From Candidatus Aenigmatarchaeota archaeon (GTDB lineage: Archaea; Aenigmatarchaeota; Aenigmatarchaeia; GW2011-AR5), in contig JACQID010000006.1 in assembly GCA_016198685.1 (NCBI GenBank), positions 124,001 through 188,000 of the forward strand: 64,000 nucleotides of DNA, read 5' to 3'. The notes beneath the pieces are model-generated. The model did not search any database. It was not told the origin of the DNA and was given only the letters and a program-made list of their open reading frames with translations. Made by a program: the position numbers and the translations under genes. Positions 5,280-59,628 of this stretch are shown here, in pieces. Position 1 is the stretch's first letter. Each line of letters starts with the position of its first letter.

Positions 5280-5378
5280 GAAATCAGATTATAACTATAG
5301 GGAAAAGACTTAAATATTCCTCATACCTTTTCATACCATCTGGGTTATATTATCTTGCACTGTGCGTATAATAGTTTC

Positions 5379-5915
5379 ATGCTAATCTTCGATGCTGCCG
5401 CAGGGGCTATAAACAAACATTTCAATTTCCGCAAGGTACGGATAACGTCTGGATCCGAGAATCTTGCGCGTATAGACGGCGACGAACTCATGCTCACGCT
5501 AAACGTCAAGGATCCTTTCGTTTCAGAACCTTCCTATGCCGCGCTTATTGCCGTCAGAGAAACATATCTTGCAATGTACGGGCGCGACGGTCTGCCGGCA
5601 GACTTGCTTGCGAACAGGAGCGTTATAAGGGACGGTATGGGGAAAGAGCTGGCAGGCTACTATTTCTTTCTTCTCATGGAAAGGAAAAACAAGAATGCCT
5701 CGACATTGCGGGAATTTGTGGAACTAAACGTGCCGCATCTGAGTTTTGCCGGTCTCGATGAAGGTCAAGCTGATATCTTCCGGGATATAGTAGAGTCATT
5801 TACCGTCCCTCCGGAAGCGAAGAAAAAAACGGAAAGGCTTTTCCTTTTATGCAGGGATGCATACAGGAATTACGAGGAATTGAGAAAAGAAGCCGAGGAA
5901 ATATGCAAGTCATAA
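5379..5915 (+). CDS. Conserved-looking protein of unknown function
   Basis: A 178-residue soluble protein when started at ATG 5379 (an upstream TTG at 5355 would add eight residues and is less likely). It begins MLIFDAAAGAINKHFNF and has an all-cytoplasmic, mixed alpha/beta look with a charged helical C-terminus (RNYEELRKEAEEICKS). I do not recognise a domain with certainty; the pattern resembles small archaeal proteins of the DUF5781 kind, but this is a weak impression. Its end overlaps the start of the DUF2797 gene by 13 bp, so both are probably made from one mRNA. No catalytic motif is apparent. Confidence 0.7.
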   Translation: MLIFDAAAGAINKHFNFRKVRITSGSENLARIDGDELMLTLNVKDPFVSEPSYAALIAVRETYLAMYGRDGLPADLLANRSVIRDGMGKELAGYYFFLLMERKNKNASTLREFVELNVPHLSFAGLDEGQADIFRDIVESFTVPPEAKKKTERLFLLCRDAYRNYEELRKEAEEICKS

Positions 5916-57322: not shown

Positions 57323-57463
57323 GCTGGGATAGCCAAGTTTGGTCCACGGCGCAGATTGGTAACAACCAAGCGCAAGTTTGCTAAACCTGTGTGCGTTTCA
57401 GGCTTTGCGCGTGAAGCACGCAAGCCAGCGAAGCACTCGAGGGTTCAAATCCCTCTCCCAGCG
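57323..57463 (+). tRNA. tRNA-Ser (GCT) with an anticodon-stem intron and a long variable-arm insertion
   Basis: Acceptor GCTGGGA pairs with TCCCAGC before discriminator G. The D-stem GCC/GGC and T-stem GAGGG/CCCTC with loop TTCAAAT are normal. The anticodon loop TTGCTAA has GCT at 57380-57382. The 5' anticodon stem is interrupted: removing 57355-57375 (21 nt, with hairpin TTGGT/ACCAA) gives the perfect stem CAGGT/ACCTG. A 5-bp direct repeat GCGCA flanks the insertion. The variable region (57390-57438) is 49 nt and has an inner hairpin GGCTTTGCG/CGCAAGCC that is either a second intron or a very long arm. No CCA is encoded. Confidence 0.93.
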
Positions 57464-57465
57464 TC

Positions 57466-57565
57466 GGGCCGGTAGTCTAGCGGCTTGTTGCCCGCTTTGC
57501 GGGCGCCTGTAAATGACGTCGCCTTTACACGGCGAAGGCCGGCGGTTCAAATCCGCCCCGGCCCA
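57466..57565 (+). tRNA. tRNA-Val (TAC) with a D-loop intron
   Basis: Acceptor GGGCCGG pairs with CCGGCCC before A. The anticodon stem TCGCC/GGCGA holds loop TTTACAC with TAC at 57526-57528. The T-arm GGCGG/CCGCC with TTCAAAT is normal. Between D-stem halves GTC (57475-57477) and GAC (57515-57517) there are 37 nt instead of about 10. The extra 27-28 nt, roughly 57484-57511, form a strong hairpin GCCCGC-TTT-GCGGGC (57490-57504), as expected for a noncanonical intron. It starts two bases after tRNA-Ser, and the two are likely cotranscribed. Confidence 0.95.
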
Positions 57566-57595
57566 TTTTTATAAGATTTCAGAGCGTATATATTC

Positions 57596-57856
57596 ATGGC
57601 GATTTTTGAAGAGTATGCGCAGAAACTGGATTTTCGAGGGCTGATGATAACATCAGTTATAACGGCTCTCGGTATCACAGTAGGTCTTTTCTGGCAGGAT
57701 GCAATAAGCCAAACAATTAATCAACTGCTTCCGCAGGAGGAAGGTTTGTTTTACAAGTATGTGGCAGCCGTGGCAGTGACGATATTGTTGGGAGTGATTG
57801 CTTATGCTCTCATGAAGTGGCAGGAATCACAGATAAAAACAAAGATAACCCGCTAA
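57596..57856 (+). CDS. DUF5654-like small membrane protein
   Basis: An 86-residue protein with two membrane helices: MITSVITALGITVGLFWQDA (residues 17-36) and YVAAVAVTILLGVIAYALMK (residues 53-72), separated by a short polar loop. It ends in a basic tail SQIKTKITR. The pattern is that of the archaeal DUF5654 family whose role is not known. It lies between tRNA-Val and tRNA-Glu and begins 31 bp after the tRNA-Val end, where a T-rich stretch may terminate the tRNA transcript. Confidence 0.75.
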   Translation: MAIFEEYAQKLDFRGLMITSVITALGITVGLFWQDAISQTINQLLPQEEGLFYKYVAAVAVTILLGVIAYALMKWQESQIKTKITR

Positions 57857-57897
57857 TGAAAGCATAAAAACCTTCCCTCGGAATGTAAACAGAGCGA

Positions 57898-57996
57898 GCT
57901 CCCGTCGTCTAGCCCGGCCATTTCCGGAGACTCCGGAAACCGTAAGGATAGAAGCCTTTCGAGCTTCGGACACGGGTTCAAATCCCGTCGGGAGCA
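57898..57996 (+). tRNA. tRNA-Glu (TTC) with a D-loop intron
   Basis: Acceptor GCTCCCG pairs with CGGGAGC before A. The anticodon stem GAAGC/GCTTC holds CTTTCGA with TTC at 57958-57960. The T-arm ACGGG/CCCGT with TTCAAAT is normal. The D-loop spans 57911-57945, about 25 nt longer than usual, and its extra part forms an 8-bp hairpin TTTCCGGA-GAC-TCCGGAAA (57921-57939). Removal leaves an ordinary loop AGCCCGGTTA-like. No CCA is encoded. Confidence 0.95.
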
Positions 57997-58009
57997 TTGG
58001 GAATTTCTG

Positions 58010-58031
58010 CGGAGAAGCTTATGCTTCTCCG
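58010..58031 (+). terminator. Strong hairpin after tRNA-Glu
   Basis: CGGAGAAGC (58010-58018), loop TTAT, GCTTCTCCG (58023-58031) is a perfect 9-bp stem 14 bp after the tRNA end. There is no T-run behind it, so it may be an RNA stabiliser or processing signal rather than a terminator. Confidence 0.4.
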
Positions 58032-58115
58032 AGATATTGAAGGATTCTTCAACATAACCAAGGTTCTTTTTGAAAGCGGTGGATTTTTAAAACGCCCGGA
58101 GGGCCAGTATCCTTT

Positions 58116-58136
58116 GTGCAAATCCCGTAAGGAGCA
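58116..58136 (+). repeat. Degenerate copy of the tRNA-Glu 3' end
   Basis: GTGCAAATCCCGTAAGGAGC plus A at 58116-58136 matches the tRNA-Glu 3' end (57976-57996) at 18 of 21 positions. It lies exactly 140 bp downstream in the same direction. The second copy sits at the ribosome-site position of the next gene (AAGGAG). It could be a relic of an att-type duplication or of a lost tRNA copy, or chance. Confidence 0.45.
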
Positions 58137-58144
58137 CATGAGGT

Positions 58145-58708
58145 TTGAGAACAGTTTTTATCCGTTTCGTTTCAATTCACTTCATGTTGTGGCTGCTCGC
58201 TCCCGCGTCGCTGCTGGTAGGCAGCGTTATATTCTTTCTTTTGGGTGGCGCGTCTGCAGTGGTCATATTCTTCATGATTTGGTTTGACAAGATTGTCCTT
58301 CGGAGCGTTACTCCATCGATACTTGGAATAGAACTGACCACAATTTCTACCATACTGATGGGAATTACGCTGGGGTCTGTCACTGCCTTTATACTTGCAA
58401 TTGTGGTCATGCCTATACTCGAAGGCGTGAAAATGCTGTTAGTACCGACGCCTTCAGAAGTTCCGCCTTTTATACCTACGCCTTATCATCTGCTTGACGG
58501 ACTTGTAGCCGCTGTCGCGCCGTTATTTGTATGGCTGCCTTTCTATGGAATAGTTGCCTTGCTGCTTGCCGGAAAATTAGCTCTGGATGCCGCCATAGAC
58601 ATTTTCGTATTTTCGAAGCCATTTGATGTGATATCAGGGGCCACGACGTTCATTTTCAACCTGATTATCAGCTGGCAATTCAGTATCTTCTTAGTGTCAC
58701 TTCTGTGA
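58145..58708 (+). CDS. Polytopic membrane protein of unknown function
   Basis: A 187-residue hydrophobic protein with four or five membrane helices: MLWLLAPASLLVGSVIFFLL (residues 14-33), ISTILMGITLGSVTAFILAI, LVAAVAPLFVWLPFYGIVAL and the final helix IFNLIISWQFSIFLVSLL. The TTG at 58145 has a ribosome site (AAGGAG) eight bases upstream; ATG 58184 is a shorter alternative. No family is recognised. It may form an unknown transporter or channel-like protein. The 3' end overlaps the region ahead of the phosphoesterase gene. Confidence 0.65.
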   Translation: MRTVFIRFVSIHFMLWLLAPASLLVGSVIFFLLGGASAVVIFFMIWFDKIVLRSVTPSILGIELTTISTILMGITLGSVTAFILAIVVMPILEGVKMLLVPTPSEVPPFIPTPYHLLDGLVAAVAPLFVWLPFYGIVALLLAGKLALDAAIDIFVFSKPFDVISGATTFIFNLIISWQFSIFLVSLL

Positions 58709-58746
58709 TACGCCGAGGATTAAAATGTTTAAATACAAGTTTCCAG

Positions 58747-59346
58747 ATGAAAATACTTGCCGTTTCGGATTTGCATAACGATTTTCGCCAGGTAAAAAAG
58801 CTTGCCGAACAGGCGGAGAAAGAAAACGTCGATGCGGTCATAATATGCGGCGATATAACTTATTTCGATGAGTACATGGACGGCATGATAGGGCCATTTC
58901 TCAAGAAAAATAAACAGGTGCTTTTCATCCCAGGAAACCATGACAGCGAAGCAACGACGGATTTCATAACCAAGAAATATGGCATAAAGAACCTGCATGG
59001 GGAAGCGGTTACGATAGGAGATGTATCGATTTTTGGGGCGGGCTGGACTACAAATGTTGGCCCTACGTGCATATCGGAAAAGGATATGAAAAACTACCTT
59101 GAGCGCGGCTTTGAGAAGTCAGAAGAAGGAAAGCGCGTCATGATAACTCACATTCATCCGAAGGGGAGCAGGATAGAGAAAAAATTCAAGTTTCCTGGAA
59201 GCTCGTCGGTCGCAAAAGCAATTTACGAACTGAAGCCGGATGTGCATTTCTGCGGTCATATACACGAGGCCGAAGGCATGGAGGAATTCATGGGCAAGAC
59301 GCATGTTTTTTCTTTGGGCAAGCACGGACGTATAGTAGAGATTTGA
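58747..59346 (+). CDS. Metallophosphoesterase
   Basis: A 199-residue calcineurin-like phosphoesterase from ATG 58747 (MKILAVSDLHNDFRQVKKLA). Metal ligands: SDLH, CGDITYFD, IPGNHDSEAT, ITHIHPKGS and CGHIHEAEG. All are present. The short, single-domain layout is like archaeal YfcE-type proteins that hydrolyse phosphodiesters. The substrate is not known. It has its own TATA-like TTTAAATAC at about 58728-58736. Confidence 0.88.
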   Translation: MKILAVSDLHNDFRQVKKLAEQAEKENVDAVIICGDITYFDEYMDGMIGPFLKKNKQVLFIPGNHDSEATTDFITKKYGIKNLHGEAVTIGDVSIFGAGWTTNVGPTCISEKDMKNYLERGFEKSEEGKRVMITHIHPKGSRIEKKFKFPGSSSVAKAIYELKPDVHFCGHIHEAEGMEEFMGKTHVFSLGKHGRIVEI

Positions 59347-59351
59347 TATTC

Positions 59352-59456
59352 ATGGATTGTCCGCGATGCGTAACGTTCCTTGATCAAGAAGATGTTGCAG
59401 GAGCGAAGAAACGCTCCAAATGCCTTAGGTGCGGCTATTATTTTGACTGTTGCTAG
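59352..59456 (+). CDS. 34-residue zinc-ribbon protein
   Basis: The frame reads MDCPRCVTFLDQEDVAGAKK then RSKCLRCGYYFDCC. CPRC and CLRC, 24 residues apart, form a classic zinc ribbon and leave two extra cysteines at the end. It begins six bases after the phosphoesterase stop and is probably in the same transcript. Small zinc ribbons of this kind are frequent in archaea and usually bind nucleic acid or protein. Confidence 0.65.
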   Translation: MDCPRCVTFLDQEDVAGAKKRSKCLRCGYYFDCC

Positions 59457-59512
59457 ATTCTTATTTAAGGCACAAGTTGCTTTAAAAATGTTCTGCTAAA
59501 TCTAATAAGCAA

Positions 59513-59628
59513 GCGGGGGTCGTGTAGCCTGGCCAATCACGCAAGGTTGAGGGCCTTGTTCCTTAGTGGATACGGGAGTTCAAATTGGATTTTCCTACGG
59601 GAAGACCATGAAATTCTCTCCCCCCGCA
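59513..59628 (+). tRNA. tRNA-Leu (GAG) with a T-loop intron
   Basis: Acceptor GCGGGGG pairs with CCCCCGC before A. D-stem GTG/CAC and anticodon stem CAAGG/CCTTG are good; loop TTGAGGG has GAG at 59549-59551. The variable arm has stem TCC/GGA. The T-stem GGGAG (59574-59578) pairs with CTCTC (59616-59620), but the loop between is 37 nt: TTCAAAT followed by about 30 nt (59586-59615) that form a hairpin around TTCC-TACG-GGAA. This is a T-loop intron. A T-run (59631-59639) just behind the gene is a likely terminator. Confidence 0.93.

Follow-up and report, generated by a model that had tools for sequence, protein, structure and literature searches.

Noncanonical introns in the tRNA genes of an Aenigmatarchaeon and a variant EndA that probably removes them

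All four tRNA genes in a 64-kb window (the whole stretch of DNA analysed here), those for tRNA-Ser(GCT), Val(TAC), Glu(TTC) and Leu(GAG), are interrupted, by five inserts of 21, 33, 27, 24 and 30 nt. The window is part of a 935-kb metagenome assembly of 8 contigs, ~94% complete, referred to below as G000; G001 and G002 are congeners. A purpose-written solver was used that excises introns bounded by bulge-helix-bulge (BHB) motifs and then scores the resulting cloverleaf. Excision at BHB sites restored the cloverleaf in all four window tRNAs, with the following features (motif codes in parentheses).

57323..57463, + strand: tRNA-Ser(GCT) gene with two noncanonical introns (Rfam RF00005, 37 bits; solver core score 83 after excision)
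57355..57375, + strand: first Ser intron, 21 nt, position 29/30 in the 5' anticodon stem (H4A1B5)
57400..57432, + strand: second Ser intron, 33 nt, variable arm (H4A3B5)
57466..57565, + strand: tRNA-Val(TAC) gene with one noncanonical intron (Rfam, 58.2 bits)
57486..57512, + strand: Val D-loop intron, 27 nt, position 20a/21 (H4A2B2)
57898..57996, + strand: tRNA-Glu(TTC) gene with one noncanonical intron (solver, by BHB excision and cloverleaf score)
57921..57944, + strand: Glu D-loop intron, 24 nt, before A21 (H3A2B7)
59513..59628, + strand: tRNA-Leu(GAG) gene with one noncanonical intron (solver; spliced sequence equal to the intron-free G001 gene)
59585..59614, + strand: Leu T-loop intron, 30 nt, position 59/60, full BHB (H4A5B3)

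In the Ser 29/30 intron the central helix (GCGC:GCGC) pairs perfectly over its 4 bp, the bulges (AG/A and AA/G) are 3 nt each and there is an inner hairpin TTGG:CCAA; the outer helix is weak, which makes this a relaxed motif. The variable-arm intron forms a full BHB (GTG:CAC, CGTT:AGCG, GGCTT:AAGCC), and its removal leaves a 5-bp variable arm, GTGCG-TTT-CGCAC. The Glu D-loop intron folds as a long hairpin (TTTCCGGA..TCCGGAAA) whose edges are uncertain by 1-2 nt, a 26-nt placement scoring nearly as well, and the Leu intron ranks first of 158 BHB candidates in its region. When the introns were shuffled, a BHB score equal to or above that observed was reached in 0% (0/2000) of cases for the first Ser intron, 0.05% for the second, 5.7% for Val, 0.15% for Glu and 0.7% for Leu, percentages that are optimistic because the splice sites were partly picked by the same score. 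ARAGORN reported a single, truncated tRNA gene in the window, and Rfam at its gathering threshold reported two, missing Leu entirely; standard tRNA finders miss many tRNAs in genomes of this type, so that such archaea may wrongly look tRNA-poor. Downstream of tRNA-Glu, at window positions 58088-58138, lies a fragment resembling the 3' end of that gene (CAAATCCCGTAAGGAGCA), possibly a tRNA remnant.

The disruption extends throughout the genome. Targeted searches (Rfam and T-arm patterns), which give lower bounds, located at least 43 tRNA genes, 8 intact and 35 interrupted (~80%). Forty genes were solved, comprising the 8 intact ones and 32 carrying 38 introns in total, a load of ~0.95 per gene or slightly higher, near the Thermoproteales average of 0.84 introns per gene (PMC8450103). 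Half of the introns (19) occupy the canonical 37/38 position and the other 19, in 17 genes, lie elsewhere. In 38/38 introns at least three of the four central-helix pairs form, with a 3-nt bulge at each splice site, a figure partly built in by the search, which itself demanded H>=3; the outer helix is poor (A0-A1) in 6/19 noncanonical introns. The BHB motifs and restored cloverleaves in the 32 interrupted, solved genes support reading the inserts as introns. Three further genes, Lys-CTT, Pro-CGG and initiator Met, are clearly interrupted and gave no unique splice-site solution; in the latter two (L203 and L038, respectively) heavy interruption left the splice sites unsettled. The initial annotation of the window had described four of four tRNA genes with noncanonical introns, each folding into its own hairpin, whose removal would leave textbook tRNAs. 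This description held, with the sizes right to within a few nucleotides and the spliced products borne out by the solver cloverleaves and by an identical intron-free Leu gene in G001. Its extrapolation to a genome-wide phenomenon was likewise correct, given 35/43 located genes interrupted, whereas noncanonical placement, true of the four window genes, describes only half of the resolved introns genome-wide.

Several individual genes deserve mention. tRNA-Leu(CAA) (L159, G000:C3:85600-86250) has three introns to remove, at 30/31, 37/38 and in the variable arm, and tRNA-Ser(CGA) (L037, G000:C3:82200-83000) seems to have a 39-nt D-loop intron together with a 37/38 intron of 10 nt, which is very short. 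A tRNA-Ile with anticodon TAT is encoded (L014, G000:C3:52030-52144); this anticodon is unusual in archaea, where AUA is mostly read by a modified CAU tRNA. The Arg-CCT intron contains C/D-box-like motifs, and an 80-nt Trp intron appears similar by eye and failed the scan (L209, L162). The D-loop introns of Glu-TTC, Gln-CTG and Val-CAC (L025, L033, L035) share a TTTCC..GGAAA hairpin style and are possibly related by transfer between tRNA genes; their likeness is only weak, and intron-to-intron similarity was rejected as proof of transposition.

What enzyme might accommodate such substrates? An extra-loop, ARMAN-like splicing endonuclease had been anticipated by the initial annotation, with ARMAN-type Micrarchaeota and some Thermoproteota offered as comparisons. 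A search recovered an EndA gene, lacking the anticipated extra specificity loop, and the lineage proved different as well: the best matches of this EndA are in Aenigmatarchaeota genomes (the closest at 91% identity, the rest mostly 60-74%), which identifies the organism as an Aenigmatarchaeon rather than a Micrarchaeon. The literature searched yielded no account of such extreme disruption of tRNA genes in Aenigmatarchaeota, and the papers found on these introns do not mention the lineage. An Aenigmatarchaeota-type EndA was also seen in a record labelled Planctomycetota (L131), probably a mis-binned contig.

The one EndA detectable in the genome is 203 aa long, with one PF02778 and one PF01974 domain, and so has the size and architecture of an alpha4 enzyme (a single two-domain subunit of about 180-200 aa) and not those of the three-unit epsilon2 form (about 390 aa). 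Its predicted structure has the EndA fold (pLDDT 83) and is closest to alpha4 Methanocaldococcus jannaschii EndA (1A79, TM 0.88), and the protein is probably a homotetramer. It keeps the acidic, L10-like stretch VVDNEGD. The ARMAN-specific loop (ASL) Tyr-Lys insertion is absent from it, whereas epsilon2 relatives all have GVYKQ or GIYKQ, and the N-terminal domain aligns to loop-less 1A79 without the long insertion expected of a Crenarchaea-specific loop (CSL). A profile for the beta subunit (A2) returned only this same EndA in G000, of which ~6% is missing; a second PF01974 match (C6:121531, E 0.1) covers 26 positions of an unrelated 300-aa protein and was discarded. An RtcB ligase gene is also present.

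The unexpected feature is the active site. In an ungapped alignment to 1A79 and 4FZ2, the catalytic lysine (K156 in M. jannaschii, K282 in ARMAN-2) is replaced by Ala180, leaving Tyr133 and His149 of the alpha4 Tyr-His-Lys triad. Of 62 Aenigmatarchaeota-type homologues, 56 have Ala at this site, 5 have Thr, 1 has Ser and none (0/62) has Lys, while Tyr133, His149 and Arg173 (the substrate arginine) are invariant (62/62). Equally invariant (62/62) is K144, positioned five residues before catalytic His149 in a basic loop, K140-K141-G-P-K144. The catalytic lysine is present, and the loop lysine missing, in two outgroup sequences of the alignment (L156, L157); alpha-beta and fused two-domain EndAs from other families of the class lack the catalytic lysine and keep the loop lysine; and epsilon2 enzymes of the same class keep both the catalytic lysine and the ASL Tyr-Lys. 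A lysine displaced by one residue (R181) was considered and discarded, the site varying among R, K, N, S, T, H and E. In other families of the class, the lysine-less EndA also comes as two neighbouring genes (products of about 190 + 172 aa) or as a fused two-domain protein of 364-372 aa (L193-L197), and several families have ARMAN-like epsilon2 EndAs (L189-L192, L198, L199), in G022, G027, G032, G045 and G056 alongside a lysine-less EndA.

From these data a joint reading can be given with a probability of roughly 0.85: the inserts would be BHB introns in functional, single-copy tRNA genes, cut by a variant EndA and joined by RtcB, with the loop lysine compensating for the lost one. Pre-tRNAs would fold into junctions of a 3-nt bulge, 4-bp helix and 3-nt bulge, the single EndA (as a likely homotetramer) would cut both bulges, and RtcB would then join the exons. 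Because this EndA is without the usual catalytic lysine and the ASL and CSL loops, a catalytic role is assigned to the basic loop, which most likely binds the phosphate and stabilises the transition state and which may also allow relaxed BHB substrates, possibly replacing the ASL or CSL. It is from sequence that we infer splicing itself, the quaternary state of EndA and the role of K144; broad specificity would follow from the enzyme's apparent substrates. The poor outer helices of 6/19 noncanonical introns, and the description of alpha4 enzymes as cutters of canonical BHB alone (PMC4033280), speak against the joint reading.

A different assignment of the cutting activity is unlikely, though it is the strongest competitor. 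Substitution K282A abolishes cleavage by ARMAN-2 EndA (PMC12397907), so an enzyme with Ala180 could be inactive unless something compensates. The lysine-less EndA might accordingly be inert or otherwise employed, with the cutting of the introns left to a second nuclease that has escaped recognition or to a divergent partner subunit encoded in the ~6% of the genome that is missing, and a lysine-containing epsilon2 enzyme is indeed additionally present in some relatives. Against this, searches of the family f1 genomes with PF01974, epsilon2 and beta profiles gave no clear second EndA: each relative with a PF01974 match has exactly one, a 2-contig genome included, and the beta and epsilon2 profiles re-found that one gene in 12/13 family genomes, the only extra being a weak partial match in G010 (E 2.8e-4). 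Moreover, strict conservation of Tyr, His, Arg173 and the loop lysine argues for an active site under selection.

Comparison with relatives bears on the inserts themselves. Spliced Leu-GAG is identical (86/86 nt) to the intron-free gene at the corresponding place in G001; the T-loop intron is also absent from G015 and G008; the T-loop insert of G009 is much longer, and in G006 and G010 the gene is interrupted at other sites. Ser-GCT of G002, in the same genus, has neither of the window introns but one at 37/38, and its sequence is CAGGATTGCTAA where that of the window gene, once spliced, is CAGGTTTGCTAA. Val-TAC of G001 runs uninterrupted (GCGGCTATGA) through the D-loop junction of the window gene, its own intron sitting further 3', while the intron of G002 at that junction is longer than the window's. 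The Glu-TTC intron has a closely similar counterpart in G001 and a short version in G002, and the Ala-GGC gene of G000 holds a 90-nt intron at 37/38, whereas its G002 counterpart is intron-free and matches the spliced G000 sequence. The intron differences among congeners are gains and losses within one genus, and introns at other positions in the congeners' Ser and Val genes point to fast turnover. The G001 Ser-GCT orthologue (L215, G001:C12, near 5356-5383) is missing its D-arm and 5' anticodon stem but still has the 3' end portion of the 29/30 intron, and may be a pseudogene, a misassembly or something stranger.

That the inserts are stable expansion segments retained in mature tRNAs is thereby very improbable: hairpins in the variable arm and D-loop would be tolerable in principle, but inserts at 29/30 and in the T-loop would break the anticodon stem and T-loop, all sit at precise BHB junctions, congeners have otherwise identical or near-identical exons without them, and EndA and RtcB are both encoded. 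Equally remote is the idea that the genes are degenerating into pseudogenes, or are products of misassembly, while intact functional copies exist elsewhere; the incomplete metagenome assembly and the apparently damaged G001 Ser gene lend it some colour, but the exon stems are intact, the same style of disruption is seen genome-wide and again in independent relatives, and the intact second set of the four tRNAs that the initial annotation had named as evidence against introns was looked for and not found among the at least 43 genes located by targeted searches of the ~94% complete genome. Both readings were rejected on the intron-free congener genes and BHB geometry.

The inserts, then, belong to a known archaeal kind of noncanonical intron, and the EndA variant is the new part. 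Introns in Thermoproteales, of which Pyrobaculum calidifontis has 71 in 46 tRNA genes (PMC8450103), share with those of G000 the BHB motif, sites in the D-, anticodon-, variable and T-arms, up to three introns per gene and fast turnover; G000 differs in belonging to a DPANN phylum, Aenigmatarchaeota, and in having no detectable (alpha-beta)2 enzyme bearing the CSL. ARMAN-1/2 (Micrarchaeota; epsilon2 EndA, PDB 4FZ2, 9W2K) are likewise DPANN hosts with noncanonical tRNA introns, but G000 EndA is a 203-aa, one-unit protein without the ASL (Y160-K161) and with Ala at K282. With alpha4 M. jannaschii EndA it shares the short two-domain subunit, the fold and the retained Tyr and His, and differs in the K156 to A180 replacement, in six extra residues in the basic loop between Tyr and His, and in apparent substrates that include noncanonical introns. 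The Nanoarchaeum equitans EndA alpha subunit (3IEY_A) has a very similar basic loop (GVIPKKGKRSEREHSKW against GVQLKKGPKSAKEHTKW), whereas it keeps the catalytic lysine (STRKKM) and needs a beta subunit; with both loop and lysine, it looks like an intermediate.

In summary, these findings add a DPANN phylum to the archaea whose tRNA genes are extremely disrupted. Alpha4 and alpha'2 forms have been described as cutting canonical BHB only (PMC4033280), and the G000 system runs counter to the published rule that efficient removal of relaxed introns is confined to (alpha-beta)2 and epsilon2 enzymes (PMC6379350). It is also a case where nature has dispensed with a catalytic residue whose mutation to alanine kills the ARMAN-2 enzyme. 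Tentatively, and at somewhat less than even odds, Aenigmatarchaeota may have rebuilt the EndA active site, losing the universal catalytic lysine and moving its job to an invariant loop lysine beside the histidine; a single-subunit EndA so rebuilt would have broad specificity with no ASL, CSL or beta subunit, and may have permitted noncanonical introns to spread in the phylum.
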